From the NCBI GenBank assembly GCA_902775345.1, contig CACYLW010000001.1, forward strand, positions 1-64,000: a stretch of DNA of 64,000 nt, written 5' to 3'. The stretch comes from an uncultured Eubacteriales bacterium (lineage in GTDB: Bacteria; Bacillota; Clostridia; Peptostreptococcales; Anaerovoracaceae). The position numbers were made by a program, and so were the translations under genes. Under the pieces are notes generated by a model. The model was not told the DNA's origin and ran no database searches. It saw only the letters and a list, made by a program, of their open reading frames with translations. Shown here piece by piece: positions 40,257 to 53,168 of the stretch; position 1 is the first letter of the stretch, and the number at the start of each line of letters is the position of its first letter.

Positions 40257-40938
40257 AGATGAAGAAAAGATCGCGCGTTTCATAGAGCTTGAACTCATAC
40301 ATGAGGGCTACGAAATCGTGAAATGCGGAGACGGCAGAACAGGGCTGGAACTGGCTGAAAGCGGAGGCTTCAGCCTCGTTTTGCTTGATATAATGCTTCC
40401 GGGACTGAACGGACTGGAGGTCCTGAGAAGGCTTAGGAAGAGTTCCGACGTACCGGTGATAATGCTTACGGCACGTGACGCGGTGATGGACAAGGTCGCG
40501 GGGCTGGATCAGGGCGCCGATGACTATATAACCAAGCCTTTTGCCATAGAGGAACTACTGGCGAGGATAAGACTGGTGCTGCGCCGCAGGGCTTACCCGG
40601 CCGGGGAGACTAAAGCGGAAACACCGGATGATCTGCTGAGATGCGGTGAGCTTACCCTGTCGGAAAGCAGGCATGAGGTAAAATACGCAGGCAATGAAAT
40701 AGAACTCACCGGCAGGGAATTCGACCTGCTGAATACTCTGCTTATCAATAAGAACATAGTGCTGTCCAGGGACCGCCTTCTGGGAAATGTATGGGGATAT
40801 GATTACATGGGCGAAACCAACGTGGTCGATGTATATATCAGATATCTGCGGAGCAAGATCGATGAAGTGTACGGGATCAGCCTTATTCAGACGGTGCGCG
40901 GAGTAGGCTACGTTATAAGAGACGAAAATGAGCAATAA
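40231..40938 (+). CDS. OmpR/PhoB-family response regulator
   Basis: The 235-residue regulator has a receiver domain with D53 in LVLLDIMLPG and K103-type lysine in YITKPFAIEE, then an OmpR winged helix (about 135-232) ending in VRGVGYVIRDE. It overlaps the DUF4342 gene by 26 bases upstream and the kinase gene by 11 bases downstream. This tight packing indicates an obligate partnership with the kinase. The regulon cannot be inferred beyond possible control of its own operon or the adjacent PBP. Confidence 0.93.
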   Translation: MTNTILIIEDEEKIARFIELELIHEGYEIVKCGDGRTGLELAESGGFSLVLLDIMLPGLNGLEVLRRLRKSSDVPVIMLTARDAVMDKVAGLDQGADDYITKPFAIEELLARIRLVLRRRAYPAGETKAETPDDLLRCGELTLSESRHEVKYAGNEIELTGREFDLLNTLLINKNIVLSRDRLLGNVWGYDYMGETNVVDVYIRYLRSKIDEVYGISLIQTVRGVGYVIRDENEQ

Positions 40939-42097
40939 AAAGAGAAGAGAAAAACCCATCCGCACAGGCTCGATGGCATTCAGAATAGGCCTGAGTTCAG
41001 GCCTTAATCTGCTGCTTATCTTTATCGTGATCGATGCCGTGCTGTTTGGCATATATCTGTGGCCGGCCATCAGTGACGGGACAGGCGCAGCAGAGATCAC
41101 GGCTGATGGCTTTAATGCTCTCATGATGCTTCTTAAGGAATGGAAGTTCGACATGCTGCTGAGGCTGGAAGGACTTCTGGTGGTGCTGTGGGTTCTGCTC
41201 GAAACACTGAAAGTACGTGCCAAACTCAAGCCGCTGCAGGAGTTTGCCGACGCGGCCCTGAAGCTGAGCGACATGGACGGTGAGACAGAGCAGCGTTATC
41301 AGAAACTTGAAAACGCCATAGACATGCTGAGCCCGGGAGAAGAAGACCAGAAGCTCGCCACGGGGGATGCTGAACTTGCCGGCCTTGAGTCGGCGGTCAA
41401 TAAACTCATGGCGAGAATGAGGGACTCATACAGACAGCAGGCGCGGTTCGTATCTGATGCCTCCCATGAATTGCGGACGCCTATTGCTGTTATCAGGGGA
41501 TATGCAGACCTGCTGGACCGCTGGGGAAAGACCGATGAAAAGATCCTGGAAGAATCGATAGAGGCGATCAAGGATGAAAGCGAGAACATGCAGCATCTGG
41601 TGGAGCAGCTGCTGTTCCTGGCACGCGGCGACAGCGGACGTACTCCTCTGAACATATCGGATTTCGACGTATCGGATATCATGAAAGAGGTCTGGGAAGA
41701 ATCCGCAATGATAGACAAGGCGCACGACTACCGCTTCGAGAGCGGAGGTGACATTCCTGCCCGCGGAGACGTATCTCTCATCAAGCAGGCAGCCAGGATC
41801 CTTGTTGAGAATGCGTCAAAATACACCCCGGAAGGAGGGGAGATACTGCTGAGAAGCCTTGTTCACGAAGGACATCCTGCTTTCTCGGTCCAGGACAGCG
41901 GAATAGGAATAAGCGAGAGCGACATTCCGCATATATTTGAGCGTTTCTACCGCGCAGACGATTCGCGCTCCAAGCAGACAGGAGGGAGCGGACTCGGACT
42001 GGCTATCGCCAAGTGGATAGTAGAACGCCATGGAGGGCGCTTCGAAGTCCTTTCGCGAAAAGACATTGGAACAAGGATCACGGTAATACTTCCGTAA
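40928..42097 (+). CDS. Sensor histidine kinase (HisKA/HATPase_c)
   Basis: The 389-residue kinase has two transmembrane helices (about 18-40 and 70-92) around a short extracellular loop, a linker that replaces a clear HAMP domain, a HisKA domain with the phospho-acceptor H180 in FVSDASHELRTP, and a HATPase_c domain with N-box LVENASKYTPEGG, G1 QDSGIGISESD and G2 TGGSGLGLAIAKW. The short sensor loop suggests it senses the membrane or a partner protein such as the DUF4342 product made from the same operon; that link is inference. Confidence 0.92.
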   Translation: MSNKKRREKPIRTGSMAFRIGLSSGLNLLLIFIVIDAVLFGIYLWPAISDGTGAAEITADGFNALMMLLKEWKFDMLLRLEGLLVVLWVLLETLKVRAKLKPLQEFADAALKLSDMDGETEQRYQKLENAIDMLSPGEEDQKLATGDAELAGLESAVNKLMARMRDSYRQQARFVSDASHELRTPIAVIRGYADLLDRWGKTDEKILEESIEAIKDESENMQHLVEQLLFLARGDSGRTPLNISDFDVSDIMKEVWEESAMIDKAHDYRFESGGDIPARGDVSLIKQAARILVENASKYTPEGGEILLRSLVHEGHPAFSVQDSGIGISESDIPHIFERFYRADDSRSKQTGGSGLGLAIAKWIVERHGGRFEVLSRKDIGTRITVILP

Positions 42098-42140
42098 GGG
42101 CGCGATCGGCGGTATCATATAGTATAAGGAGGGTCTTGAT

Positions 42141-42557
42141 ATGTATCATGAAATAGAGGGACAGCTAAGCATAGAACCTATTATTTTTGATGATGACGAG
42201 CTGGTCGCACGCGGTCATCATTACCCATATGCTGAGATCGAGTCGCTGGAGATAACCAGTTCGCAGATCTTTTCGCCTTACGGCATACTGACACTGCGGA
42301 CACAGGGCAAGGATATTCCGATCCCGTTTGTACGCTCAAGGAAAAGTAAACTGGAGCTGGCGCTGAGAGATTTTAAGAAACTGCACGAGAGCGGGGGAGA
42401 TAAATCTGCAGGCAAGGCGCAGGGCAGCGCGATGGGTGTTCCTCCGGAGGGCATGGATCCTTATGAAGAACTGAAGAAACTTAAGGAACTGCTCGATCTG
42501 GATATAGTAACCAAAGAAGAATTTGAGGCTAAAAAGAAAAAGTTGCTGGATCTGTGA
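42141..42557 (+). CDS. SHOCT-domain protein
   Basis: This 138-residue protein has a beta-rich N-terminal domain (residues 1-85, with ITSSQIFSPYGILTLRTQGK, a PH-like pattern) and a C-terminal SHOCT motif (about 107-138: PYEELKKLKELLDLDIVTKEEFE). SHOCT modules are short paired helices thought to mediate protein contacts in cell-surface or envelope proteins. It lies 43 bases after the kinase with AAGGAGG, and may be the last gene of that operon. A strong terminator follows within 2 bases of the stop. Confidence 0.7.
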   Translation: MYHEIEGQLSIEPIIFDDDELVARGHHYPYAEIESLEITSSQIFSPYGILTLRTQGKDIPIPFVRSRKSKLELALRDFKKLHESGGDKSAGKAQGSAMGVPPEGMDPYEELKKLKELLDLDIVTKEEFEAKKKKLLDL

Positions 42558-42605: not shown

Positions 42606-43925
42606 TTACAGAACGTGCTTTCCGTACATAGCATCCTGCTCTTTTCTGAGCTTGTAGATCAGAGTGTTCTTGTCGAGCTCAACCATGTCGTATGTGATGA
42701 GGTCGCCCTTCTTGCAGTCAACCTTCATAACAGCATTCTTGTTGATCAGGCCGAATGGTACATAACCCTTCTCTGTTGCCTCTGCCTCTGTGCAGATTGA
42801 TCCGAGTGTTGTGTATCCGCCGATTCCGTCGAGGTTCTGACCAGCCTTGAGGTCGATCTTAGCTCTTGTGATGCACTCAGCAACGAGTCCGTCCTTAGCT
42901 ACGCATGTCTTCTCTCCGTCGATAACAGCCTTAGCAACTGTGAGCGGTGTCTCGAGGTTGCAGAGGTGATATGGTCTGTAGAGTGTCCAGAGTGGTCCAG
43001 GACCCATGCTGTGGTACTGCAGCTGGTAAGCGATCTCAGCGTTGTCTGTGGAGACTGTTACGAATACGCCAGGGGCGATTCCGTTTACGTACTCAACTAC
43101 GCCGTGCTTGTTGAGGATTCCGCCGTCTTTCTTCAGCTTGAAGATCTCGTTGAGCTGCTTAACGCCCTCTGTTCCAGGAGCTGTTGCAGGGCCGTGTCCG
43201 CCGATTACGTCAGGAATGAGACCTGTGTAGTTGCACATAGCAGTCATCTCTACCATTGTCTTTGTGCCATCCTTGAATGCGCAGAGCATTCTTGGGCTCA
43301 TCTTGCGGCGTGTAGCCTCTTCGAGTACTGTGTCAGGGTTGCACTCATAGTCGAGCTTGTTGTTCTTGCCCTTGCCCATTACTTCTACGTTGAGGCCCAT
43401 AGCCTTTGCGAAGCAGTAGAGCTCCATTACAGCGCCCGGCTCGTCACCAGCGGAACCTGTGTAGATTACGCCGTGATCCTTAGCGAACTTGTCGAGGTAA
43501 GGTCCGATAACAACGTCTGTCTCAACGTTAAGCATTACTACGTGCTTACCATGCTCCATAGCGTCTGTAGCAACCTTAGCGCCAACATCAGGAACTCCTG
43601 TGCAGTCAACTACAGCGTGAACGCCTTCTACCTGTGCAACGAAATCTGCGTTTGAGCATGCAACGTACTTGTGAGCTGCGATTCCTGCGTTAGCTTCTTC
43701 GAGAGTGTTTGCAACAACGATGTCTTCATCAGCAACCTCAGCATACTTGAATGCATGTACAGCGAGGTCGATGTTGATGTCGGATACGATTGCAGGTGTC
43801 ATTCCCTTCATGAGAACCATCTGTGTAACCATTCCGCGGCCCATCTGTCCTGCGCCAACGATACCGACCTTGATGATCTTTCCTTCTTTTTCTCTCTGCT
43901 CGAGTTTCCAGTTCATGTTAAGCAT
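42606..43925 (-). CDS. DRL-like NAD(P)-dependent oxidoreductase with SAF domain
   Basis: The 439-residue protein has a homoserine-dehydrogenase-like Rossmann domain (VGIVGAGQMGRG, residues 20-31) and a C-terminal SAF domain (about 365-425, VPFGLINKNAVMKVDCKKGD). This architecture matches the DRL family. In Brucella, DRL converts 1-deoxyxylulose 5-phosphate to methylerythritol 4-phosphate, but many relatives sit in other contexts. Here the gene is co-transcribed with a glucitol-type EIIA, where a sorbitol-6-phosphate dehydrogenase would normally be. I infer that it oxidises, perhaps with carbon-skeleton rearrangement, the polyol phosphate made by this PTS. The start follows AAGGAGG. It is 93 bases from the EIIA gene. 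Confidence 0.7.
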   Translation of the reverse strand: MLNMNWKLEQREKEGKIIKVGIVGAGQMGRGMVTQMVLMKGMTPAIVSDINIDLAVHAFKYAEVADEDIVVANTLEEANAGIAAHKYVACSNADFVAQVEGVHAVVDCTGVPDVGAKVATDAMEHGKHVVMLNVETDVVIGPYLDKFAKDHGVIYTGSAGDEPGAVMELYCFAKAMGLNVEVMGKGKNNKLDYECNPDTVLEEATRRKMSPRMLCAFKDGTKTMVEMTAMCNYTGLIPDVIGGHGPATAPGTEGVKQLNEIFKLKKDGGILNKHGVVEYVNGIAPGVFVTVSTDNAEIAYQLQYHSMGPGPLWTLYRPYHLCNLETPLTVAKAVIDGEKTCVAKDGLVAECITRAKIDLKAGQNLDGIGGYTTLGSICTEAEATEKGYVPFGLINKNAVMKVDCKKGDLITYDMVELDKNTLIYKLRKEQDAMYGKHVL

Positions 43926-44018
43926 AATAGTAATCCTCCTTGTTGGTCCTATGCTTGAGATATGGATTTTTCTTTAAAGGTATATGAGTATTGTTTATGA
44001 CTTTTTCATGCAGACTGC

Positions 44019-44390
44019 TTAGAAGATCTGAATTTCAGTTCCGTTTGCGAGGTCTGCTTCAGTAACGATCTCACCATCCAGATTGATGCAGCCCGGACGG
44101 TAAGGTTCTGTATCTGCTGTGAACGCAAGTGTGCAGTGTCCCAGTTCCTTGAGAGTCTGTATAGCCTCGTCACCGACAGCTGTGATCTTATAAGTCTTAG
44201 CGCCGATCTTCATGGTGTCTCCAGGAGCAGGTGCTTCAGTAAGCTCTGCCTTTGTATGCAGAATAGCAAGTTCAGCAAGTTCAGCAGGTGCATCGTCGTT
44301 GAAGAGAATAACGAATCTCATTTCCATTGCAGGATCGAGGAATGCGAGTGCCATATCGCCGAGCCCGGTAACGGATACATCATATTTCAT
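44019..44390 (-). CDS. srlB: PTS glucitol/sorbitol-type EIIA
   Basis: The 123-residue protein is the EIIA of the glucitol family (SrlB/GutB). It takes phosphate from HPr and passes it to EIIB. The likely phosphohistidine is H45 in AILHTKAEL, at the place of the E. coli IHCHGEL motif, and the family segments YKITAVGDEAIQTLKELGH and RPGCINLDGE are present. It is split from the EIIC and EIIB genes by nearly 4.5 kb and transcribed in the opposite direction, unlike the srlAEB order in E. coli. AAGGAGG precedes its ATG and a good promoter lies at 44436-44464. Confidence 0.92.
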   Translation of the reverse strand: MKYDVSVTGLGDMALAFLDPAMEMRFVILFNDDAPAELAELAILHTKAELTEAPAPGDTMKIGAKTYKITAVGDEAIQTLKELGHCTLAFTADTEPYRPGCINLDGEIVTEADLANGTEIQIF

Positions 44391-44435
44391 ATGGGACCTC
44401 CTTTGTGTTGCGTTTAATATCTCTTTACATTGAGT

Positions 44436-44464
44436 ATTATATGTCTAATTACACGCGACTTCAA
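44436..44464 (-). promoter_or_regulatory. Promoter of the EIIA-DRL operon
   Basis: On the minus strand TTGAAG (44464-44459), a 17-base spacer and a perfect TATAAT (44441-44436) form a sigma-70 type promoter 46 bases before the EIIA start codon. Confidence 0.75.
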
Positions 44465-44516
44465 GCGTTTTGTTCAGAACATATGATTAAGAAGCGTTAT
44501 TTAGGCATATTGATTT

Positions 44517-44528
44517 ACGCATATGCGT
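44517..44528. promoter_or_regulatory. 12-bp perfect palindrome in the divergent control region
   Basis: ACGCATATGCGT is a perfect palindrome lying between the divergent EIIA and SorC promoters. It could be an operator, but it has no second copy in the window and a 12-base palindrome may be chance. Confidence 0.3.
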
Positions 44529-44580
44529 GCATACAAATGAATATGTTGCGAATATTTGTTAGATAATTGACGAAGAACTG

Positions 44581-44609
44581 TTGCTTTTGTTAACTTTGGC
44601 CGATATAAT
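44581..44609 (+). promoter_or_regulatory. Promoter of the SorC-family regulator
   Basis: TTGCTT (44581-44586), a 17-base spacer and TATAAT (44604-44609) lie 74 bases before the regulator start. The inverted repeat at 44626-44656 lies just downstream of the expected transcription start. Confidence 0.7.
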
Positions 44610-44625
44610 CTAAAAGCACTTTCAG

Positions 44626-44656
44626 ACAAATGCATTTACTCAACTGAAGCATTTGT
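44626..44656. promoter_or_regulatory. Candidate SorC operator, inverted repeat
   Basis: ACAAATGC (44626-44633) and GCATTTGT (44649-44656) are perfect inverted arms separated by 15 bases, followed by a further ACAAAT at 44659. The same half-site appears near 47914 and 48042 in the other divergent region of this cluster, which supports a common regulator. Confidence 0.55.
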
Positions 44657-44682
44657 GAACAAATCCGAAGAGGAAAACTGAC

Positions 44683-45660
44683 ATGAAGAAAATCGTAGAT
44701 GACGAGCGTCTGATATATAAGGTATGCAGCCTTTACTATCAGGATAATATGAATCAGCAGGAGGTAGGGGACTATCTTGGCGTTTCCAGATCTTCCGTAC
44801 TGCGCATGCTCCAGAAGGGCCGTGAGATGGGCATAGTCACGATCGAACTGCATAACCCGCGGTTCTATGACTACGGTGAAATGGAAAAGACCCTTGAGAG
44901 AGCATATGGACTAAAGGATGTCCTGATCGTAGAAAACAGTGTGCTCGACACAAGATCTGAAGCTGCATCCTATATGTTTGGTTCGGCATCAGACTATCTG
45001 CACAGCTTCTTTAAGGAAGGTGACCGGGTAGGAGTTGCCATGGGCAATACGCTCAACAATGTCGTTAACACCAATAAAGTCTATGAAAAGCACAAGGATC
45101 TCATCTTTGTTGCGCTGGAAGGAAGCATCAGCAGGATCACAGTCGAAGGCACTGACGTGCAGGGAAACGAGATCGCAAGAAAGTTTGCGGACAAGTTCGG
45201 CGGTACCTACACGCAGTTCCTGTCACCGGCGGTCTTTTCTGACTGGAAGGTCCTCGAGTTTTTCATGAAGGAAAAGGCGGTCAACTACATTCTTGATGAG
45301 TTCAAGAGGCTGAATGTAGTTGTCGTAGGAATAGGAGTTCCGGACGGCACCGAACATACGCTGAGCAAGGCCGGATACCTGGCGGATGAAGAGCGCAGAA
45401 AGCTGGTAGAGAGGGGAGCCGTAGGCGATATGTGCCTGCAGTTCTATGATAAAGATGGAAATACTGATCAGTACAGCTTCTACAACGACCGTGTAGCCGC
45501 TATGCGTCTCGCGGACGTCCGCAGGATACCAAGCAAGATCGGTATCGCCGGCGGAGCGAGAAAGGTAGATGCCGTGATAGGCGCGATACGCGGAGGCTTT
45601 ATCAACATCCTGATCACAGATACCGAATGCGCAAAGAAACTTATCGAACTGGCGCAGTAG
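44683..45660 (+). CDS. SorC/DeoR-type transcriptional regulator of the polyol cluster
   Basis: The 325-residue protein belongs to the SorC family: an N-terminal helix-turn-helix (about 20-50, MNQQEVGDYLGVSRSSVLRML) and a large C-terminal sugar-phosphate-binding domain (60-325) related to sugar-phosphate isomerases (GVAMGNTLNNV, VVGIGVPDG, GIAGGARKVDAV). Such regulators respond to a sugar phosphate or dihydroxyacetone phosphate. It lies in the centre of the cluster with divergent metabolic genes on both sides, so it most likely controls both arms. It sits after its own promoter and candidate operator, which suggests autoregulation. Confidence 0.88.
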   Translation: MKKIVDDERLIYKVCSLYYQDNMNQQEVGDYLGVSRSSVLRMLQKGREMGIVTIELHNPRFYDYGEMEKTLERAYGLKDVLIVENSVLDTRSEAASYMFGSASDYLHSFFKEGDRVGVAMGNTLNNVVNTNKVYEKHKDLIFVALEGSISRITVEGTDVQGNEIARKFADKFGGTYTQFLSPAVFSDWKVLEFFMKEKAVNYILDEFKRLNVVVVGIGVPDGTEHTLSKAGYLADEERRKLVERGAVGDMCLQFYDKDGNTDQYSFYNDRVAAMRLADVRRIPSKIGIAGGARKVDAVIGAIRGGFINILITDTECAKKLIELAQ

Positions 45661-45680
45661 CAAAATCAAAATACAAACAA

Positions 45681-45720
45681 AATGGCGGAAGCTCTTCTGG
45701 GTGCTTCCGCCATTCTTTTA
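45681..45720. terminator. Bidirectional intrinsic terminator
   Basis: AATGGCGGAAGC (45681-45692) pairs perfectly with GCTTCCGCCATT (45703-45714) and is followed by CTTTTA. The minus strand beyond it is also T-rich, so it may end both the regulator and the convergent aldolase transcripts. Confidence 0.85.
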
Positions 45721-45753
45721 TAGGATTTATATTATGAAGTTTTGTAAGCTGCT

Positions 45754-46584
45754 TTATGCTCTTGTGCCGAACACCTTGAAATAATGCTCGAGGCACTCGT
45801 TCATTCCCTTCTGCAGGGCATCTCTTACCTTGAAGTAGCTGGAGGTATCTTCTTCGTCAAGAGACTTCATAGCGGCAAGATAGAGGTCAGTGTAAATGTT
45901 GACCTTGCAGATGCCTTCCTTAGCGCAGCGGCTGAGATTGTCGTCTCCGGAGCCGGAACCGCCGTGAAGTACGAGAGGAACGTTTGTTGCCTGACGGATC
46001 TTTGCAAGAGAATCAAAGCTGATCTCCGGAATTGCCTTTGCCTTATAAACGCCGTGGGCGGTACCGATCGAGATCGCCAGTGAATCGCAGCCTGACTGCT
46101 CTGCGAAGGAAGAAGCTTCCTCAGCTGTCGTATACAGTGTTTCAGTGTCGTTCTCGTCGAAGTTGCTGGCAACATGGCCGATCTCAGCTTCAACAGTTAC
46201 TCCGCGCGCGTGTGCATACTCAACTACCTTGCGTGTTGTCTCTACGTTTTCTTCAAAGCTCTTCATGGAAGCATCGATCATGACGGAAGTGAATCCGAGG
46301 TCGATAGCCTTCTTGCATGTCTCAAAGCTTTCACCGTGATCAAGGTGCAGAACAACAGGAACGCTTGCTTCGGCAGCATACTTTCTGCCTACCAGAGCTG
46401 CGTCTTCAAGGCTGATGTTATTGCCGAGATGGCTCTCAGCTACACCTACGATCAGCGGGAGACCGAGCTTCTCTGCCAGCTGAATGTGGTTCTTGATGCT
46501 CTCCATGTCGAGAACATTTGCGGATGGGATAGCGTAGTGGCCTTCCTGGGCCTTTTCAAACAGTACTTTTGAATTAACAAGCAT
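45754..46584 (-). CDS. Class II ketose-(bis)phosphate aldolase
   Basis: The 276-residue enzyme belongs to the class II zinc aldolases (FbaA/GatY type), which split ketose phosphates into dihydroxyacetone phosphate and an aldehyde. Catalytic D82 and zinc ligand H83 lie in VLHLDHGES, with further ligands H177 in TAHGVYKAK and H207 in LVLHGGSG. The longer frame opens at 46614 and would overlap the stop of the preceding gene; the ATG at 46584 has AAGGAGG and gives the family start MLVNSKVLFEKA, so it is preferred. It is the third gene of a TIM-YjbQ-aldolase operon. The ketose it uses in this pathway is unknown. Confidence 0.9.
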   Translation of the reverse strand: MLVNSKVLFEKAQEGHYAIPSANVLDMESIKNHIQLAEKLGLPLIVGVAESHLGNNISLEDAALVGRKYAAEASVPVVLHLDHGESFETCKKAIDLGFTSVMIDASMKSFEENVETTRKVVEYAHARGVTVEAEIGHVASNFDENDTETLYTTAEEASSFAEQSGCDSLAISIGTAHGVYKAKAIPEISFDSLAKIRQATNVPLVLHGGSGSGDDNLSRCAKEGICKVNIYTDLYLAAMKSLDEEDTSSYFKVRDALQKGMNECLEHYFKVFGTRA

Positions 46585-46606
46585 TTCTATATCCTCCTTG
46601 CCCTGA

Positions 46607-47137
46607 TTATTCACCCATTACGATGATTCTGCATCTTCTGCCGCGTTCTCTTGTTCTGTCAAAGTCTACGAAATATACATAACCGGTGGATCCGACTGCC
46701 AGCTTGCCGCCTTCGACTTCCAGTGTTGCGCTGTTGCCGAGGAGCGTTGCCTTCATGTGTGCATCGCAGTTGAGAAGGGCAGTCTTGTCGCCGCCAGGGA
46801 GATATGCTTCTGCATCAGGCCAGGAAGCAACGTCTGCATAGTGCTCAGGGCCCGGATACATATACTGACCAGCAGGAGGAATCTCAGTCTGATCAGGAAT
46901 GATCTTCTTAAGTGCATCGTTCAGGTCTACCTGCAGGAATTCTGTTCCGTCTTCTGTAAGGTCGTGAACGAACTCTTCAAAGAATACCGAGCATGTCGTG
47001 TGCGGCGAAATGATAGTTACGATTCCGCTCTGGATGCCGCTGTTTGCGATGGCCTGCTTAACCTCAGGAGTGATGTTGATAAAAGTAGGTGTTCCGCCAT
47101 GGGACTTCAGATTGATCTGCTCTTTGTAAATCTTCAT
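46607..47137 (-). CDS. YjbQ (UPF0047) family protein in the polyol operon
   Basis: The 176-residue protein is a YjbQ/UPF0047 member: SPHTTCSVFFEEF near residue 44, then HMKATLLGNSATLEVEGG and the C-terminal FVDFDRTRERGRR. Its usual length is about 135-140; the extra residues lie in the middle (about 85-120, IPPAGQYMYPGPEHYAD). YjbQ of E. coli has weak thiamine-phosphate synthase activity, but the main role of the family is not settled. The gene lies between a triosephosphate isomerase-like gene (2-base gap) and the aldolase gene, so a sugar-phosphate reaction is plausible. That is inference from position. Confidence 0.85.
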   Translation of the reverse strand: MKIYKEQINLKSHGGTPTFINITPEVKQAIANSGIQSGIVTIISPHTTCSVFFEEFVHDLTEDGTEFLQVDLNDALKKIIPDQTEIPPAGQYMYPGPEHYADVASWPDAEAYLPGGDKTALLNCDAHMKATLLGNSATLEVEGGKLAVGSTGYVYFVDFDRTRERGRRCRIIVMGE

Positions 47138-47139
47138 TA

Positions 47140-47835
47140 TTATTTACCTTCTCTTTCCTTATAAGCTTTTACGATTGCTTCTGCCATCTCCTGTACACGT
47201 ACAGCCGGTGATGGAGCGTTCAGGATACCGGATGTTGCGCCGGTGCCGTCTGCGCCGAGTCTTACTACATTGTAGCAGTCATCAGCAGTAACAACGCCGG
47301 AAGCGATCATTACTAGCACGTCCGGATTAACTTTATGGAGTGCGGCAACTGTTTCTGTTACGTAAGAGTCATCGGCAGTCTTGCCGGTTCCGATCAGGTC
47401 TGTAGGCTCTGCCAGTACGATGTCAGCATCGAGGCAGGCAACTGCAGCAGCTTCCTTTGTGCTGTCTGCGCATACTACAGTGATCATCTCAAGCTCTTTT
47501 GCACGTTTGATGCAGGCGCTCAGCTCTGCAACGGTCTTAGGGTTTTCTGCGTGGTTGAGGAATACTGCGTCAGCTCCTGCTTCCTTGAGAGATTCAGGAA
47601 GTACGTGTCCCATGCCGCGTCCCGGTGTAAGCGGATCGAGAGACTGTGCGCAAACGATCACATGGCTTGTGTTCTGTTTGATCAGTCTGATATCAGCGTA
47701 AGGACATGTAAAATAGATCTGAAGACCTGTCTCAGCGGCAGTCTTGTCAGCAGCCATTGCGAGCTCCAGACTCTTCTGGCCATAGAGATAAGATTTTGGA
47801 TTGACGATCAGGAATGGGCGTTCTGCTTTAACCAT
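47140..47835 (-). CDS. Triosephosphate isomerase-like protein, short form
   Basis: This 231-residue protein is of the shorter, archaeal-like TIM type, not the usual bacterial ~250 residues. All catalytic residues are present: N12 and K14 in VNPKSY, H95 in FLNHAENP and E143 in LAEPTDLIG, plus the phosphate loop GADGTGATSGIL. It may interconvert dihydroxyacetone phosphate and glyceraldehyde 3-phosphate made by the neighbouring aldolase. Related TIM-like proteins in erythritol operons (EryH of Brucella) instead act on tetrulose phosphates, so that is an alternative. First gene of the operon with the aldolase. Confidence 0.85.
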   Translation of the reverse strand: MVKAERPFLIVNPKSYLYGQKSLELAMAADKTAAETGLQIYFTCPYADIRLIKQNTSHVIVCAQSLDPLTPGRGMGHVLPESLKEAGADAVFLNHAENPKTVAELSACIKRAKELEMITVVCADSTKEAAAVACLDADIVLAEPTDLIGTGKTADDSYVTETVAALHKVNPDVLVMIASGVVTADDCYNVVRLGADGTGATSGILNAPSPAVRVQEMAEAIVKAYKEREGK

Positions 47836-47895
47836 GGATCTGTTCCTCTCTTTCCTTTTATATAGATTTCCAGTGTAGTTTCATTTTATGGCTTC

Positions 47896-47924
47896 ATATT
47901 AGACCATATTTAAACATTTGTCAA
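47896..47924 (-). promoter_or_regulatory. Promoter of the TIM-YjbQ-aldolase operon
   Basis: On the minus strand TTGACA (47924-47919), a 17-base spacer and TAATAT (47901-47896) form a promoter 60 bases before the TIM start. The -35 overlaps the half-site ACATTTGT at 47914-47921, a suitable place for repression. Confidence 0.65.
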
Positions 47925-47934
47925 GAACATTTGC
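47914..47934. promoter_or_regulatory. Candidate SorC half-sites, direct pair
   Basis: ACATTTGT (47914-47921) and ACATTTGC (47927-47934) repeat with a 13-base period. They match the arms of the inverted repeat at 44626-44656. Confidence 0.45.
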
Positions 47935-48027
47935 GTAAATTTTATTTTATTTTTTTATTCCGGAAGTTAACAATATAACTATGTCAACATTGCTTTGTGT
48001 GAGTTGACTGAGGGTTTCCATAAAAGT

Positions 48028-48064
48028 GCAAATATATTAAAGCAAATGTATAGATAAATTTGTG
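48028..48064. promoter_or_regulatory. Candidate SorC half-sites upstream of gutM
   Basis: GCAAATAT (48028-48035) and GCAAATGT (48042-48049) repeat with a 14-base period, and AAATTTGTG follows at 48056. They resemble the half-sites near the SorC gene. The 376-base region 47836-48211 also holds the two outward promoters and is otherwise AT-rich with no gene seen. Confidence 0.4.
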
Positions 48065-48143
48065 TCAATCTCGCCATTGAAGCAAAAAATGCAAAAGATT
48101 GGTTAAGATATATTAATTTAGTCATATGGTCAGAACATTATCC

Positions 48144-48173
48144 TTGATATTTGACAGCGTTTAGAGATACAAT
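48144..48173 (+). promoter_or_regulatory. Candidate promoter of the gutM-PTS operon
   Basis: TTGATA (48144-48149), an 18-base spacer and TACAAT (48168-48173) lie 38 bases before gutM. An overlapping TTGACA at 48151 with TACAGT at 48173, and a TATAAT at 48182, are alternatives, so the exact promoter is not settled. Confidence 0.45.
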
Positions 48174-48211
48174 ACAGTCATTATAATGGGGAAGAAACAG
48201 GAGTATATGTA

Positions 48212-48685
48212 ATGAAACTCAGCGGAGTATCCATTCTCTTATTGATAGTACTGGGATTGCTCATAATGCAGTCACTCGGCGGAGTGCTGCAGATCAAGAG
48301 TTATCAGAGAGCAGTCCGCAGGGTGCACCAGCTGGGAAACGTGGGCATGGGACAGAGACGCGGCAAATTCTTTGATGGACACATTGCCATAATCGCCTGC
48401 GATAACGAAGGTATCATCACTGGTGCGGAGGCGCTGGACGGATCCGGCCTGTGGGCACGCTTTCACCCGGTGGATTCCTTCCTGGGACAGCCACTTGTCG
48501 GCAGCAGTATCTACGACCTTCTGAAATTGACAGAGAGTCTGGATAAAAAGGAATGGAAGCGCTGGCAGGGATACATCCGTGCGCTGGAAGCGCTTGAGGT
48601 AAGGCTGACTGATCGTGAGCTCACGAGAGAGCAGGAAGCTTTCATGGAAACAAAAAGGGGAAAGCAGGGAAAAAGGCTCAGATAA
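48212..48685 (+). CDS. gutM: Glucitol operon activator-type protein GutM
   Basis: The 157-residue protein belongs to the GutM family. It has one N-terminal membrane helix (about 6-26) and a soluble part with QRRGKFFDGHIAIIACDNEG and AEALDGSGLWARF. In E. coli GutM is described as an activator of the glucitol operon, yet the membrane helix suggests it helps the EII complex instead. It is the first gene of gutM-EIIC-EIIBC-HAD-ptsH-ptsI. The following 135 bases contain a stem-loop (48705-48744) before the EIIC gene. Confidence 0.85.
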   Translation: MKLSGVSILLLIVLGLLIMQSLGGVLQIKSYQRAVRRVHQLGNVGMGQRRGKFFDGHIAIIACDNEGIITGAEALDGSGLWARFHPVDSFLGQPLVGSSIYDLLKLTESLDKKEWKRWQGYIRALEALEVRLTDRELTREQEAFMETKRGKQGKRLR

Positions 48686-48704
48686 ACAATATCCCGATAT
48701 GTAT

Positions 48705-48744
48705 CACCGGAGAGGCAACCGGGGTTAAAAGCCTCCAGCCGGTG
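48705..48744 (+). other. Stem-loop between gutM and the EIIC gene
   Basis: CACCGG (48705-48710) and GAGGC (48712-48716) pair with GCCTC (48731-48735) and CCGGTG (48739-48744). No T-run follows, so it is more likely an mRNA stabiliser or processing site than a terminator. Confidence 0.5.
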
Positions 48745-48820
48745 TATCATATATAAATAAGTAAAGTCTTCATCAATTTGCATGAAGATGAGTTTGTAAA
48801 AAAATGAATGGAGGAACTTT

Positions 48821-49336
48821 ATGGAATTTGTTGCAAAACTGGCAGAAGGCTTCATGTCACTGTTCAGTGCCGGCGGAGAGACCTTCATGGGCTGGGTAAC
48901 AGGAATCATTCCTACACTCGTATGCCTTATGACAGCTGTCAACTCCATCATCAAGCTGGTCGGTGTAGAGAAGGTTGAGAGATTTGCTCAGAAGATTACA
49001 AAGTATGCCGTTCTCAGGTATACACTGCTCCCTTTAATGGCAGTATTCTTCCTGGGTAACCCGATGTGCTACACATTCGGACGTTTCTGCGAAGAGAAGT
49101 ATAAACCTGCTTACTATGATGCAGCAGTCAGCTTCGTACACCCTATTACAGGTCTGTTCCCTCACGCAAATGCCGGTGAGCTCTTCGTCTGGCTCGGTAT
49201 CGCACAGGGCCTTCAGGAGGCTGGACTCAGCACAGGCGGACTTGCAGTTCGTTACTTCATCGTTGGTCTTATCGTGATCCTCATCAGAGGCCTTCTCACA
49301 GAGAGGATCTATGCAGGCATGATAAAGAACAAGTAG
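48821..49336 (+). CDS. srlA: PTS glucitol/sorbitol-type EIIC
   Basis: The 171-residue membrane protein is the EIIC of the glucitol family (SrlA/GutA), carrying part of the sugar channel. Four or so hydrophobic helices are seen, with family segments AVNSIIKLVGVEKVERFAQK, FFLGNPMCYTFGRFCEEKYKP and SFVHPITGLFPHANAGELFV (given by these fragments at about 40-60, 76-97 and 104-123). It works with the EIIBC protein encoded next. RBS is GGAGG. This family of EIIC is known mainly for sorbitol, but closely related systems could carry other polyols. Confidence 0.93.
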   Translation: MEFVAKLAEGFMSLFSAGGETFMGWVTGIIPTLVCLMTAVNSIIKLVGVEKVERFAQKITKYAVLRYTLLPLMAVFFLGNPMCYTFGRFCEEKYKPAYYDAAVSFVHPITGLFPHANAGELFVWLGIAQGLQEAGLSTGGLAVRYFIVGLIVILIRGLLTERIYAGMIKNK

Positions 49337-49351
49337 TGAGGAGGTAGGACT

Positions 49352-50356
49352 ATGTATAAGACAATTAAGATTAATGCTGGAGACGGCGGCTGGGGCGGCC
49401 CTCTCACAATTACACCAACTGATAAATGCTTCACAGTTCTTAGCGTAACCGGTGGCGGAATCCACCCTGTTGCAGCAAAGATCGCTGAGCTCACAGGCGG
49501 CGAAGCAGTAGACGGTTGGAAGACAACACTTCCTGACGACGAGGTCATGGTTGCAGTAGTAGACTGCGGCGGAACTGCAAGATGCGGAGTATATCCTAAG
49601 AAGGGTATCTTCACTGTAAACCTTATGCCTTCGGGCGCTACAGGCCCTCTGGCACAGTTCATCACACCTGAGATCTATGTATCCGGCGTAAAGGAAAAAG
49701 ATATTGAAGTTCTTGGCGATGCACCTGAAGTTGCAGCAGCGCCTGCTGCAGCAGCTGCTGTTGCTGACAAGGGACCTAAGACAAAGGATGAGGCTAAGGC
49801 AGAAATCGCTGCTGCCAATGAAGGAAAGAAGCAGGGCTTCGTAGTACGTCTTGGTAAGGGCGTAGGAGCTGTTGTTAGTAAGTTCTTCCAGGCCGGCCGT
49901 GACACAATCGACATGGTCATCAAGAACATCCTGCCGTTCATGGCATTCACAAGTACAATTCTTGGTATCATCAGCGCAAGCGGACTTGGTAACGTAATCG
50001 CTAACACGATCGCACCTCTCGCAGGATCTCTTCCTGGCATGCTGGTAATCTGCTTTATCTGCTCACTGCCGTTCCTGTCACCTATCCTCGGACCTGGAGC
50101 TGTAATCGCCCAGATCGTAGGTACACTCCTCGGTGCACAGTTCGCAGTAGGTGCTATCCCTGCTAAGTACGCTCTGCCTGCTCTGTTCGCTATCGACGGT
50201 CAGGTCGGTGGAGACTTCGTTCCTGTAGGACTTTCCCTCGGAGAAGCTGAACCTGAAACAATCGAGTACGGTGTTCCGGCAGTTCTGTTCTCCCGTATGG
50301 TAACAGGTCCTCTCGCAGTTCTGATCGCATTTGCTTTCAGCGTAGGTCTGTACTAA
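49352..50356 (+). CDS. srlE: PTS glucitol/sorbitol-type EIIBC
   Basis: The 334-residue protein has an N-terminal EIIB domain (1 to ~120) and a C-terminal membrane domain (about 165-334). The phospho-cysteine is expected at C72 in VVDCGGTARCGVYPKKG (C78 is the second conserved cysteine); the start INAGDGGWGGPL and later GPLAQFITPEIYVSGVKE are family marks. An Ala-rich linker (about 125-150) joins the domains. It phosphorylates the polyol during uptake. It is followed by a strong stem-loop at 50365 and then the HAD gene. Confidence 0.93.
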   Translation: MYKTIKINAGDGGWGGPLTITPTDKCFTVLSVTGGGIHPVAAKIAELTGGEAVDGWKTTLPDDEVMVAVVDCGGTARCGVYPKKGIFTVNLMPSGATGPLAQFITPEIYVSGVKEKDIEVLGDAPEVAAAPAAAAAVADKGPKTKDEAKAEIAAANEGKKQGFVVRLGKGVGAVVSKFFQAGRDTIDMVIKNILPFMAFTSTILGIISASGLGNVIANTIAPLAGSLPGMLVICFICSLPFLSPILGPGAVIAQIVGTLLGAQFAVGAIPAKYALPALFAIDGQVGGDFVPVGLSLGEAEPETIEYGVPAVLFSRMVTGPLAVLIAFAFSVGLY

Positions 50357-50364
50357 TCAAAATT

Positions 50365-50397
50365 GACCGGTTCGCGGATCCCGTCTGCGAACCGGTC
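50365..50397 (+). other. 11-bp stem-loop after the EIIBC gene
   Basis: GACCGGTTCGC (50365-50375) pairs perfectly with GCGAACCGGTC (50387-50397). It is followed by TGATTAAAAAGG, not a T-run. It may protect the upstream mRNA or reduce read-through into the HAD-ptsH-ptsI part. Confidence 0.6.
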
Positions 50398-50418
50398 TGA
50401 TTAAAAAGGAAGAGAAGA

Positions 50419-51099
50419 ATGGAGGCGCTTTACCAGTACATCATTTTTGACCTGGACGGTACGCTTATTAAGTCTGAAGAAGGGCTTTATGACTCTATAA
50501 CCTATGCGTTGGAAAAGTCAGGGGTCCATCCGGGGGATCGTAAAGATATGAAGAGAATGATCGGTCCGGTACTGTGGGAGTCTTTTCAGAAATTCTACAA
50601 TATGAGTGCGGAAGAAGCAGATTTGGCAAACGCGTATTTCAACGAAGCCTATGATAAAGAGGGACTATATAACGCCTCTGTTTATGAAGGTGTTGAAGAT
50701 ATGCTCCAAACGCTTCGGAATGCAGGCAGAATACTTCTTGTTGTGACAGCCAAGCCCCGGGATATGGCTGAAAGAGTTTTAAACCACACAGGAATAGACC
50801 AGTATTTTCAGGCAGTCATAGGGCCGGCTCGAGAAGATAAGAAGACCGACAAAGGCTCTCTGCTTAGGAAAGCACTTAGTTTTCTGGCAAATACCGGAAC
50901 AGATCACTTTCAAAAGGAACAGGCTGTTATGGTCGGCGACCGCATGTTTGACATGGAAGGAGCCGTCGAAACAGGCATTCATTCTATCGGCGTTCTCTAC
51001 GGTTATGGGGACCGGCAAGAATTATTGCGCGCTGGTGCAACATGGCTTGCCGATACACCTGCAGATGTTGTAAAATTACTCTGTAGGGAGTCGCTGTAA
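50419..51099 (+). CDS. HAD-family phosphatase (phosphoglycolate phosphatase-like)
   Basis: The 226-residue HAD hydrolase has motif I IIFDLDGTLI (nucleophile Asp and the +2 Asp near residues 10-12), motif II VVTAKPRD, a motif III lysine near KTDKGSLL, and motif IV MVGDRMFDMEGA, with an alpha-helical cap between. Such enzymes dephosphorylate phosphoglycolate, sugar phosphates or polyol phosphates. Placed between the EII and ptsH genes, it could relieve build-up of a toxic polyol phosphate. Its codon use looks more AT-rich than that of its neighbours, which may indicate a separate origin. Confidence 0.85.
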   Translation: MEALYQYIIFDLDGTLIKSEEGLYDSITYALEKSGVHPGDRKDMKRMIGPVLWESFQKFYNMSAEEADLANAYFNEAYDKEGLYNASVYEGVEDMLQTLRNAGRILLVVTAKPRDMAERVLNHTGIDQYFQAVIGPAREDKKTDKGSLLRKALSFLANTGTDHFQKEQAVMVGDRMFDMEGAVETGIHSIGVLYGYGDRQELLRAGATWLADTPADVVKLLCRESL

Positions 51100-51128
51100 C
51101 TCAGGAATAAGTAGTCAAGGAGATTATT

Positions 51129-51392
51129 ATGGTATCAAAAGAATTCACAATCAATAATGAACTGGGAATGCACATGCGTCCGGCAAGCCTTCTGTCCCAG
51201 ATGGCAGCTAAATACCAGAGCAACATTACAGTTAAGCACAACGGTAAGGACTTCAACGCTAAGAGCGTTATGCTTCTGATGACCGCACTCATCAAATGCG
51301 GTTCGGAGATCGAAGTCGTATGCGACGGTCCGGATGAAGAGGCTGCTCTCGCTGAGATCACAGCTTTCATCGATTCTGGAATGGGAGACTGA
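51129..51392 (+). CDS. ptsH: Phosphocarrier protein HPr
   Basis: The 87-residue protein is HPr. The phosphohistidine is H15 in LGMHMRPAS, where most HPr read GLHARPAS, and the regulatory serine is S46 in AKSVMLLMTA. Retention of S46 implies that HPr kinase could act on it, so it may serve carbon catabolite control as well as transport. The gene follows the HAD gene by 29 bases and precedes ptsI, with a terminator-like hairpin between. A dedicated HPr inside a single-sugar cluster is not usual; it may also be the only HPr of the cell. Confidence 0.93.
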   Translation: MVSKEFTINNELGMHMRPASLLSQMAAKYQSNITVKHNGKDFNAKSVMLLMTALIKCGSEIEVVCDGPDEEAALAEITAFIDSGMGD

Positions 51393-51411
51393 TCAATAAG
51401 TTAATCTTCTC

Positions 51412-51446
51412 TGCTCCCCTGCATTTTTTGCAGGGGAGCATTTCTT
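51412..51446 (+). terminator. Terminator-like hairpin between ptsH and ptsI
   Basis: TGCTCCCCTGCA (51412-51423) pairs perfectly with TGCAGGGGAGCA (51429-51440) around five T residues, then TTTCTTAA. Partial termination here would give more HPr than Enzyme I. Confidence 0.7.
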
Positions 51447-51461
51447 AACGGAGGAATAAAA

Positions 51462-53168
51462 ATGTACAAAGGAATCGCAGCATCTAGGGGAATCGGTATC
51501 GGCAGCATCTGCCGCATAATAGAGCAGGATCTTTCTTTTGAGGCAAAAATGGTCTCGGATACAGCTGCTGAGAAGGCCCGTTTCCAGAAAGCCATAGATG
51601 ATTTCGTAGAAGAAACATATGCAATGGCTGAAGATGTTAAGAAAAACATCGGTGAAAAAGAATCAGAAATCCTTTTGGGACATGCAGTCATGATCTCCGA
51701 CCCGTCAATGTCGGGAGAGATGTTCAGCATGATAGAAGCCGGACAGTGTGCTGAAGCTGCACTTACAGGTGTCTGCGACATGTTTTACGGCATATTTTCC
51801 ACTATGGATGATGAGATGATGAAGCAGAGAGCATCCGATATCGCAGACGTCAAGTTAAGCATCCTCAAGAAGCTTCTCGGCGTCAAGGATATCGAGATCG
51901 GAAAGGTTCCAAAGGGAACCGTACTCGTCTGCAAGGATCTGACACCATCAATGACGTCACAGATCGTTAAGGAGAATGTCGCCGGAATCATAACAGAGGT
52001 GGGCGGTCCTACTTCTCATTCCGCAATTCTCGCAAGAGCTCTTGAGATTCCGGCCGTATTATCGGTTCCGGGAATCGTTGATCTGGTCGAAGACAAGGAT
52101 GCGGCTATCGTAGACGGTACTTCGGGAGATGTATTCATCAATCCTGAAGGAGACGTCCTTGCAAAATACGTTGACAAGCGCGAAGAGTTCATTAAAAAGA
52201 GAGAAGAACTGAAGAAATTCATCGGCAAGGAAACTCTTACTGCTGATGGCGATAAGCTTGAGATCTTCTGCAACATCGGTACTCCAAAGGATGCGAAAAA
52301 AGCCATGGAATGCGACGGCGAAGGCGTTGGCCTGTTCCGTTCGGAGTTCCTGTTCATGGACAACACGCACCTTCCAACCGAAGAAGAGCAGTTTGCAGCA
52401 TATAAAGAAGCACTTGAAACCATGGAGGGCAAGACTGTCATCATCCGTACACTCGATATCGGCGGTGACAAGGACATCCCTTATATGGACTTCGAGAAAG
52501 AAGAGAATCCGTTCCTCGGATTCAGAGCTGTCAGATACTGCCTCGCTAATCCGGACATGTACAAGACTCAGCTCCGTGCCATTACAAGAGCAAGCGCTTT
52601 CGGAAAGGCAAAAATCATGGTTCCGCTCGTTACCACGGTAGATGAGGTCAGGGCGGTCAAAAAACTCGTCGCTGAGATCAAGGAGGATCTCCGCAAGGAG
52701 GGAATAGCATTTGACGAAGACATCGAAGTAGGATGCATGACAGAAACAGCAGCATCTGCTGCAATAGCAGATCTCCTTGCTAAGGAAGCAGACTTCTTCT
52801 CGATCGGAACAAATGACCTCACGGGTTACACAATGGCAGTAGACAGAGGCAATGCGAAGGTTGCTTATCTGTACTCGGCATTCCAGCCTGCAGTACTCCG
52901 CTCGATCAGACAGATCATCAAGGCTGCAAAGGAAGCGGGCATACCTGTAGGAATGTGCGGAGAAGCAGCGGCAGATCCTCTTATGATTCCGCTCCTCATG
53001 TCCTTCGGACTTGACGAGTACAGCGTAAACCCTGTGCTTGTCCTTACGGCTCGCTCCATTATTTCAAAATGGTCAAAAGCTGAAGCTGATGCCCTTGCCG
53101 ACAAGGTCATGGCAATGGACAACATCGAAGACGTCGTTGCAGCACTCAAGGCAGCGGCAAAGGAATAG
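51462..53168 (+). CDS. ptsI: PTS Enzyme I
   Basis: The 568-residue protein is Enzyme I, which moves phosphate from phosphoenolpyruvate to HPr. The active-site histidine is H186 in GGPTSHSAILARAL. The C-terminal PEP-binding barrel contains EGVGLFRSEFLFMD and MCGEAAADPLMIPLL, with the catalytic Cys in the latter. Length is normal (about 570-575). The first residues MYKGIAASRGIGIG are typical. RBS is GGAGG and a terminator follows at 53183. It is the last gene of the gutM operon. Confidence 0.96.
   Translation: MYKGIAASRGIGIGSICRIIEQDLSFEAKMVSDTAAEKARFQKAIDDFVEETYAMAEDVKKNIGEKESEILLGHAVMISDPSMSGEMFSMIEAGQCAEAALTGVCDMFYGIFSTMDDEMMKQRASDIADVKLSILKKLLGVKDIEIGKVPKGTVLVCKDLTPSMTSQIVKENVAGIITEVGGPTSHSAILARALEIPAVLSVPGIVDLVEDKDAAIVDGTSGDVFINPEGDVLAKYVDKREEFIKKREELKKFIGKETLTADGDKLEIFCNIGTPKDAKKAMECDGEGVGLFRSEFLFMDNTHLPTEEEQFAAYKEALETMEGKTVIIRTLDIGGDKDIPYMDFEKEENPFLGFRAVRYCLANPDMYKTQLRAITRASAFGKAKIMVPLVTTVDEVRAVKKLVAEIKEDLRKEGIAFDEDIEVGCMTETAASAAIADLLAKEADFFSIGTNDLTGYTMAVDRGNAKVAYLYSAFQPAVLRSIRQIIKAAKEAGIPVGMCGEAAADPLMIPLLMSFGLDEYSVNPVLVLTARSIISKWSKAEADALADKVMAMDNIEDVVAALKAAAKE

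Follow-up and report, generated by a model that had tools for sequence, protein, structure and literature searches.

Glucitol/sorbitol PTS operons of the srl/gut type carry the genes for EIIA, EIIC, EIIBC and GutM, and the sorbitol PTS reportedly transports 2-C-methyl-D-erythritol (ME), a branched tetritol, into Salmonella, according to the title of a 2004 paper by Testa. The Brucella-type DXR-II enzyme, or DRL (PF21135, COG4091), is known as a biosynthetic producer of MEP, and members of this family yield MEP in complementation assays, according to PMC3847144. MEP pathways in which DXS is missing and the lower MEP genes are retained were described by Marshall et al. (2023; PMC10663253), and in that survey 172 DXS-less species are left without explanation. 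In the titles and abstract openings covered here (most subscription papers and supplements lay outside this scope), none was found to connect DXR-II with a PTS, with the catabolism of ME or with isoprenoids made from ME.

Gene content of the block and candidate operators

The window analyzed is a stretch of 64,000 nucleotides from an uncultured Eubacteriales bacterium related to gut bacteria. At positions 42606-53168, it contains a block of twelve genes which resembles the srl/gut operon in that it includes a glucitol-type PTS, identified with Pfam models: EIIA (44019-44390, minus strand; PF03829, 101.7 bits), GutM (48212-48685, plus strand; PF06923, 69.6 bits), EIIC (48821-49336, plus; PF03608, 263.4 bits) and EIIBC (49352-50356, plus; PF03612, 237.2 bits, and PF07663, 147.1 bits). 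The block differs from this operon in having its own HPr (51129-51392, plus; PF00381, 103.9 bits) and Enzyme I (51462-53168, plus; PF02896, 377.1 bits), and it carries DXR-II, an aldolase, a TIM-like protein and YjbQ instead of a sorbitol-6-phosphate dehydrogenase of the SDR type, which is absent from the twelve assigned genes, as the initial annotation had stated. With the SorC/DeoR-type regulator, which has a sugar-binding domain (44683-45660, plus; PF04198, 202.4 bits), and a phosphoglycolate phosphatase-like HAD phosphatase (50419-51099, plus; PF13419, 114.4 bits), every gene named in that annotation was recovered in profile searches. The block is kept as a unit in genomes of the same genus, and the HAD phosphatase gene was not found at two genus loci (L044 and L046).

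The three genes referred to here as the tail occur together within the cluster in all five genus regions compared. The class II aldolase, of the FBA/GatY type and presumably acting on DHAP (45754-46614, minus; PF01116, 299 bits; TIGR00167, 243.6 bits, above the cut-off), has the motifs HLDHG, GTxHG and LHGGS, which are conserved in 31 aligned rows, and its closest solved structures are FBA and YdjI. The archaeal-type TIM-like isomerase (47140-47835, minus; PRK04302, 177.8 bits, above the cut-off; 1hg3, E 8e-45) retains K14, H95 and E143, and across 34 rows the conservation of each is 95% or higher. The long-form YjbQ/UPF0047 protein (46607-47137, minus; PF01894, 88 bits; TIGR00149, above the cut-off) has solved relatives which, among those listed, carry no assigned function.

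A candidate operator, TTTGTTCAGAACAT, lies in the gap between the EIIA and SorC genes (44469-44482, plus), and similar sites recur, by pattern matching only, in the TIM-GutM gap, as TTTGTCAAGAACAT (47917-47930, plus) and TATGGTCAGAACAT (48125-48138, plus), and in genus relatives. The SorC-type regulator might act through this shared candidate operator at both divergent promoters. Within the window, no Rfam match at the gathering score and no tRNA were detected; the promoter scan (11, versus a shuffle mean of 14.0) was not above shuffles, and the terminator scan (11, versus 9.0) was counted likewise.

The DXR-II enzyme and its neighborhoods

The oxidoreductase (42606-43925, minus) contains the DRL catalytic domain anticipated in the initial annotation (PF21135, 203.8 bits versus a cut-off of 27) and matches the Brucella DRL structures 3upl/3upy over its full length (query 8-436, E 2e-93). 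The residues G121, T229, H250 and V351 of the Brucella enzyme, which are diagnostic with respect to DLO1/DLO2, correspond to G115, T223, H244 and V348 in the window protein. The active-site and dimer residues K191, K193, E174, F178, R320 and Y322 are all present (6/6), K191, K193, R320 and Y322 corresponding to K185, K187, R317 and Y319. E174 and Y322 differ in a few of the other compared rows; K191, K193, T229, H250 and R320 are invariant in 71 of 71 rows whatever the tail genes, which argues for a single substrate. Judging from its domain, its full-length homology and these diagnostic residues, the window oxidoreductase is a true DXR-II. The SAF label given to it earlier holds by homology, as relatives are annotated "SAF domain-containing", but the Pfam SAF model (PF08666) matched neither this protein nor any other part of the genome. 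No match to the DXR-II gene was found in the E. coli collection. While the described enzymes of this family are known for making MEP, that of the window sits in a PTS cluster, where it is proposed to interconvert MEP and DXP, mainly in the direction of DXP.

The survey suggested in the initial annotation showed that the pairing of the two systems recurs: of the 80 named loci, 70 have one or more gut-PTS genes no farther than 9 kb from DXR-II, as do 33 of the 37 loci flanked by at least 7 kb on each side and 19 of 20 order-level regions. DXR-II occupies the place expected of a polyol-phosphate dehydrogenase, and the analysis supports the central idea of the initial annotation, in which a polyol catabolic cluster makes use of a DXR-like reaction. 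The linkage was observed in Clostridia, Selenomonas and its kin, Bacilli and Alphaproteobacteria, whereas two or more tail genes are near DXR-II at 35 of the 80 loci. Some relatives have a gut PTS with Enzyme I as the importer, others an ABC transporter with a kinase, and in Clostridia, Priestia and Alphaproteobacteria these are often accompanied by E1-E2-E3 genes. Of 13 annotated alphaproteobacterial regions, 11 have E1-E2 genes directly downstream of DXR-II (8 of 10 when the three regions picked for an adjacency already seen are set aside), and such genes also adjoin it in Priestia; E1-alpha occurs within 9 kb in 9 of the 20 order-level regions, seven of which have all four subunits. No E1, E2 or E3 gene is present among the twelve genes of the window block.

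The relatives' complex, which is proposed to act on DXP, belongs with the pyruvate and acetoin dehydrogenases. Its E1-alpha scores just under a PDH cut-off and its E1-beta exceeds a PDH subfamily cut-off (NCBIfam models), the closest solved E1 is that of mitochondrial PDH, and the E2 beside DXR-II is annotated as PDH in four fetched records and as acetoin dehydrogenase in three. By the models, E1 seems to resemble pyruvate more than acetoin dehydrogenase; the solved structures and plasmid annotations lean at most towards PDH as well, and we count this against the ME route proposed below.

Distribution of DXS and DXR-I

The absence of DXS and DXR-I is not visible from the letters of the window alone. 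The genus survey comprised 47 genomes, most of the genomes surveyed in this study being incomplete draft MAGs. Neither DXS nor DXR-I was found in any of the 14 genomes with a substantial DXR-II, which are related, so that these are not 14 independent events; among the 33 others, DXS (above 300 bits) was present in 27 and DXR-I in 31. In the 14 carriers, IspD was above its cut-off in 12, IspF was present in 12, IspG was present in all six tested, and HMG-CoA reductase was found in none. Two genomes of the genus (G339 and G405) lack DXS, DXR-I and DXR-II alike. Matches of about 50 bits to the DXS model were rejected as real DXS: they cover approximately positions 1-183, the frames being some 280-300 residues long, and one such protein, in L085, scores 215 bits with Transketolase_N versus 57 with the DXS model. 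In the window genome (90.5% complete), the top match to the DXS model reached 57 bits in a 284-residue frame; IspD, IspF and IspG are present and HMG-CoA reductase is not. This genome fits a DXS-less MEP pathway, the mevalonate route being judged by HMG-CoA reductase alone and the lower MEP pathway by IspD, IspF and IspG. In comparison with the survey by Marshall et al. (2023; PMC10663253), whose species may or may not carry the cluster, the present analysis ties the absence to a PTS-DXR-II cluster and proposes where MEP comes from.

Outside the genus the picture is more varied. Of 37 named DXR-II genomes, a subset chosen by us from those behind the 80 loci, 10 have neither DXS nor DXR-I, and eight of these carry IspF. 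A further genome, G059, likewise lacks both and carries IspF. Both genes are kept in 16 of the 37, and in the order outside the genus DXR-I is kept in 14 of 15 DXR-II genomes and DXS in 10 of 11; the cluster therefore does not require their loss. Selenomonas and its kin (7 of the 37) have a DXS-like gene and DXR-II without DXR-I. At L083, L088 and L109, DXS is missing and DXR-I is kept, which ME import does not explain.

A proposed methylerythritol route and its alternatives

We give an even chance to the proposal that the cluster handles ME for energy and isoprenoids. Using the HPr and Enzyme I encoded alongside it, the gut-type PTS would import ME and phosphorylate it to MEP, which would join the ordinary pathway at IspD-IspF, so that isoprenoids could be made without DXS and DXR-I. 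Surplus MEP would be oxidized and rearranged by DXR-II to DXP, in the reverse of the known reaction, and DXP would then be split into a three-carbon phosphate and a two-carbon unit, which is the least certain step. In many relatives, E1-E2-E3 would convert DXP to acetyl-CoA and glyceraldehyde 3-phosphate; in the clade of the window, the TIM-like protein would shift the carbonyl, perhaps together with YjbQ, and thereby form a 5-deoxypentulose 1-phosphate, which the DHAP-type aldolase would cleave to DHAP and acetaldehyde. This cleavage is known for 5-deoxyribulose 1-phosphate, and a similar carbonyl migration for MTRu-1P to MTXu-5P. The 5-deoxyribose disposal system (drdKIA) and the MTA-isoprenoid shunt likewise cleave a 5-deoxypentulose 1-phosphate to DHAP and acetaldehyde and involve carbonyl migration to a 5-phosphate ketose, but they use other families, namely an MtnA-like isomerase, a FucA-like aldolase and a RubisCO-like protein. 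The MtnA-like isomerase and FucA-type aldolase which mark the DHAP shunt are not those of the block, which has a PF01116 aldolase and a PF00121 isomerase-like protein. We know of no TIM-family or YjbQ protein that shifts a carbonyl twice.

The main rival is a bypass of DXS in which the tail runs backwards: the aldolase would join DHAP and acetaldehyde, the resulting 5-deoxypentulose 1-phosphate would be isomerized to DXP by the TIM-like protein and YjbQ, and DXR-II would reduce DXP to MEP, the PTS importing something else or being auxiliary. The lack of DXS in all 14 genus carriers, the presence of the tail in all five genus regions compared and the aldol equilibria of this kind, which lie strongly towards condensation, speak for this reading, which would also account for L109, where DXR-I and the tail are present without DXS. 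It seems rather unlikely, however: the PTS is a steadier partner of DXR-II than the tail (70 versus 35 of the 80 loci), a regulator of the SorC type points to a nutrient as inducer, and L062, L071, L072, L091 and L127, which lack DXS and DXR-I, show no tail in the available surroundings of DXR-II (for L071 and L072 only a short downstream stretch is covered, and the tail could be located elsewhere). That DXR-II is a mere biosynthetic stand-in for DXR-I, incidentally located beside a PTS and fed with DXP by an unrecognized synthase, would agree with the complementation assays and with the gene content of Selenomonas and its kin, but it is improbable given that the PTS linkage repeats in the four groups named above and that DXR-II is the sole MEP or MVA gene of Finegoldia magna and Anaerococcus prevotii (PMC3847144).

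The initial annotation had named apiitol phosphate as an example: apiitol, or another branched pentitol, would be imported and phosphorylated, and DXR-II would then give xylulose 5-phosphate. The transaldolase/FSA or transketolase genes located by DXR-II in some relatives suit xylulose 5-phosphate at least as well, and a split transketolase half adjoins Enzyme I in some genus loci; apiitol is therefore possible in relatives of this kind. As the substrate of the window cluster it is unlikely, since xylulose 5-phosphate would need neither a DHAP-aldolase nor the E1-E2-E3 complexes that many relatives carry, and the absence of DXS and DXR-I from the genus carriers is left unexplained. For the D-apiose route of E. 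coli, a kinase and transketolases are described together with an isomerase or other oxidoreductases (PMC13001218). ME fits the window better. A plain linear route, with dehydrogenase activity on sorbitol, arabinitol or tetritol phosphate, would match the gut-type PTS and the aldolase, but is very improbable given the retention of the DXR-II-specific residues, and it provides no selective reason for the absence of DXS and DXR-I.

The ME route provides a testable account of why bacteria hold DXR-II beside, or without, an MEP pathway (PMC3847144) and of how isoprenoids may be made without DXS, as in the 172 species mentioned above. More tentatively, and with somewhat less than even confidence, we suggest that several lineages of gut anaerobes have lost DXS and DXR-I and obtain MEP by PTS import of ME made by plants or other microbes, their isoprenoids depending on diet or neighbors, and that DXR-II serves primarily in ME catabolism, in a widespread pathway ending in acetyl-CoA and glyceraldehyde 3-phosphate or in DHAP and acetaldehyde. 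If this is true, an essential pathway of some gut bacteria would begin with a scavenged metabolite, these bacteria would escape drugs directed at DXS or DXR-I, and DXR-II, viewed so far as a spare biosynthetic enzyme, would become a primarily ME-catabolic one that marks a route for the catabolism of a neglected natural product.

Gene block and oxidoreductase

The block at 42606-53168 comprises twelve genes, which match those listed in the initial annotation, and none of them encodes a short-chain dehydrogenase, as had also been claimed. The first pair, consisting of the oxidoreductase and EIIA genes, lies on the (-) strand and is followed by the SorC regulator gene on the (+) strand, which faces the aldolase, YjbQ and TIM-like genes on the (-) strand, while the right part of the block carries the genes encoding GutM, EIIC, EIIBC, HAD, HPr and Enzyme I on the (+) strand. 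To the left of the cluster, positions 39666-42557 encode a DUF4342-like protein, a response regulator and a histidine kinase (the latter two identified by eye), and a SHOCT-like protein, which adjoins the cluster in the related locus L046 as well. The genome (2.25 Mb, 26 contigs, 90.5% complete) has as its nearest named relatives entries with titles such as Mogibacterium sp., from the gut of goat, sheep and horse.

By its sequence, the oxidoreductase is a DXR-II (DRL). It had been described as a DRL-like protein with a SAF domain: the DRL catalytic domain was retrieved with the Pfam model (203.8 bits), and the SAF domain gave no match with Pfam's own model. Residues 8-436 of the query align with the solved DRL of Brucella (E 2e-93). 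Extracts from PMC3847144 (2013) name the active-site residues of DXR-II and the positions, such as 121, 229, 250, and 351, which divide true DXR-II from two look-alike families; all these diagnostic and active-site residues are present in the aligned window protein. Across 71 other DXR-II rows, K191, K193, F178, T229, H250, and R320 are invariant, and changes are seen at E174 (6 rows), Y322 (3 rows) and V351 (7 rows); this count leaves out the distant rows L047 and L150, both of which deviate at T229.

Importers, tails and a candidate operator

At least one gut-PTS gene was found within 9 kb of the DXR-II gene in 70 of 80 named loci, which are the best 80 of 456 relatives, some genomes contributing more than one locus, and in 33 of the 37 loci flanked on each side by 7 kb or more. 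In the order, 27 of 393 genomes gave a DRL_cat match, and a PTS gene was present in 19 of the 20 regions examined from these genomes, the single exception being the distant row L047; at least six of these 20 regions, including L046 and L049, are also among the 80 named loci. The linkage to an importer recurs in plasmid records (19 examined out of 111 with a match) of Priestia, Listeria, Ligilactobacillus, and Enterococcus, and in those of Alphaproteobacteria, where the importer is of one of two kinds: a gut PTS together with Enzyme I, or an ABC transporter plus a kinase. In an Oscillospiraceae MAG (L123:10082-16842), DXR-II adjoins large proteins that resemble, by eye, subunits of the xanthine-dehydrogenase type, with no PTS beside it.

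Three types of tail occur next to DXR-II. Tail (a) consists of E1-alpha, E1-beta and E2, frequently accompanied by E3 and lipoate genes. Of the 20 order regions, 9 have E1-alpha no more than 9 kb from DXR-II, as do L126 and L127 among the 80 loci (L126 and L036 come from one genome). All four subunits are present in 7 of these 9 regions, the subunit families having been verified for L036 only, plus two further E1 pairs. Among the 13 alphaproteobacterial regions with annotation, tail (a) is directly 3' of DXR-II in 11; three of the 13 were picked because this adjacency had previously been seen, and of the other 10 it holds in 8, the exceptions being two Phyllobacterium regions without the tail. 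A haloarchaeal relative has no tail (a) either. Tail (b), that of the window, consists of the TIM-like, YjbQ and aldolase genes, at least two of which occur in 35 of the 80 loci. Tail (c), transaldolase/FSA and/or transketolase, occurs in 14 rows out of 100, from 12 distinct contigs; in six of the 14 rows (four contigs) it takes the form of a transketolase half beside Enzyme I in genus loci. It was also seen in L. salivarius. In the DXR-II tree (73 of 118 rows, the remainder having been removed as near-identical), the window-type clade comprises 42 rows with a support of 100/100 and no tail (a), and tail (a) occurs on deeper branches; since the tree has several long branches, the deep order is unsure.

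Each of the window's two divergent gaps contains a site resembling TTTGnTCAGAACAT. In genus relatives, it was found with 1-3 mismatches in 11/11 GutM|TIM rows (10/10 distinct) and with 0-2 mismatches in 7/9 SorC|EIIA rows (7/8 distinct), the two rows without it, L046 and L049, being one contig. In row L043, 5 of 40 shuffles equalled the match, and the site was found in 2 of 6 gaps in distant loci (L058 and L062). Given how closely related these loci are, and given the simple shuffling, this candidate operator carries little weight.

Isoprenoid genes in DXR-II carriers

Of the new findings, the strongest is that the genus carriers lack DXS and DXR-I. Among the 47 genus genomes surveyed, 14 have a substantial DXR-II (with an internal stop in G408, and truncated by contig ends in some others), and the 33 others include G300, which has a 56-position fragment. 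None of the 14 has DXR-I, HMG-CoA reductase or DXS (the best DXS matches reach only about 36 to 57 bits, and G334 has none), whereas DXS exceeds 300 bits in 27 of the other 33 genomes and DXR-I is present in 31 (Fisher p = 1e-7 and 4e-10, respectively, on counts that are not independent events since the genus genomes are related). IspD is over the cut-off in 12 of the 14 carriers, IspF is present in 12, and IspG in all six tested. Two of the 33, G339 and G405, have IspD and IspF without DXS, DXR-I or DXR-II; the DXR-II cluster is perhaps absent from these assemblies.

In DXR-II genomes of the order that fall outside the genus, DXS is missing from one of 11 tested (the match in G177 being 260 bits) and DXR-I from one of 15; the genome is G059 in either case. 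Among 37 named DXR-II genomes, hand-picked from those behind the 80 loci and of unstated completeness, 16 have DXS, DXR-I and IspF, one has DXS without DXR-I, seven (Selenomonas and kin) have a DXS-like match of about 240 bits and no DXR-I, and 10 lack both, eight of these having IspF. The remaining three lack DXS only, showing no match of DXS size and keeping DXR-I and IspF: Propionispora (L083/G422), a Pelosinus MAG (L088/G425), and Megasphaera massiliensis (L109/G436).

A fused IspDF is likely in the window's genome, where adjacent IspD and IspF matches (G000:C6:25186-26394) fall within open frames of 417 aa. In Selenomonas ruminantium (L102:10001-12697), ispD and ispF are directly 3' of the DXR-II gene; ispD is just upstream of the cluster in L071 and L072, and both genes flank it in L036.

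Substrate and source of MEP

DXR-II interconverts DXP and MEP. DXP is an acyloin bearing a methyl ketone, which a pyruvate/acetoin-dehydrogenase-like complex could cleave into acetyl-CoA and glyceraldehyde 3-phosphate. 2-C-methyl-D-erythritol (ME) is a plant product. The sorbitol PTS of Salmonella is reportedly responsible for ME transport (Testa 2004). Given this chemistry and this reported transport, the gut PTS, MEP, DXR-II, DXP and the E1-E2-E3 complex, in that order, would close a route from ME. We infer this mechanism from the gene content, which supports the catabolic use of a DXR-like reaction originally proposed. The substrate then suggested was apiitol phosphate, from which DXR-II would yield xylulose 5-phosphate; no part of tail (a) would be needed in that case, and ME seems more likely than apiitol. 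Against the ME reading, E1 looks nearer to pyruvate dehydrogenase by models, and the annotation of E2 is divided (pyruvate dehydrogenase in four records, acetoin dehydrogenase in three). A mutant PDH E1 is stated in extracts from PMC3424233 to permit DXP formation in E. coli.

In the tail found in the window, FBA-type motifs are conserved in the aldolase, as are K14, H95, and E143 in the TIM-like protein. YjbQ (46607-47137) has 176 aa, and its solved relatives, 129-151 aa long, match it in separate pieces, so that an insertion within the protein is suggested. Since a DHAP-aldolase should not split DXP directly, the carbonyl must first shift to the phosphate end, a step which the TIM-like protein and YjbQ would carry out. 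A comparable migration, from MTRu-1P to MTXu-5P, is ascribed to a RubisCO-like protein in extracts from PMC4958253. The cleavage of 5-deoxyribulose 1-phosphate into DHAP and acetaldehyde described in part of PMC6079011 involves an enzyme from another family than the window aldolase; as such aldol equilibria are said there to favour condensation, the tail could also run backwards and make DXP without DXS.

Since DXS, DXR-I and HMG-CoA reductase were not found in the genus carriers, MEP for IspD would be either imported as ME or obtained via DXP made otherwise. According to extracts from a 2023 survey (PMC10663253), 181 species lack DXS only, and no explanation is offered for 172; its text contains none of the words uptake, scaveng-, sorbitol and phosphotransferase. 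The PTS-DXR-II cluster may account for some of these DXS-less species.
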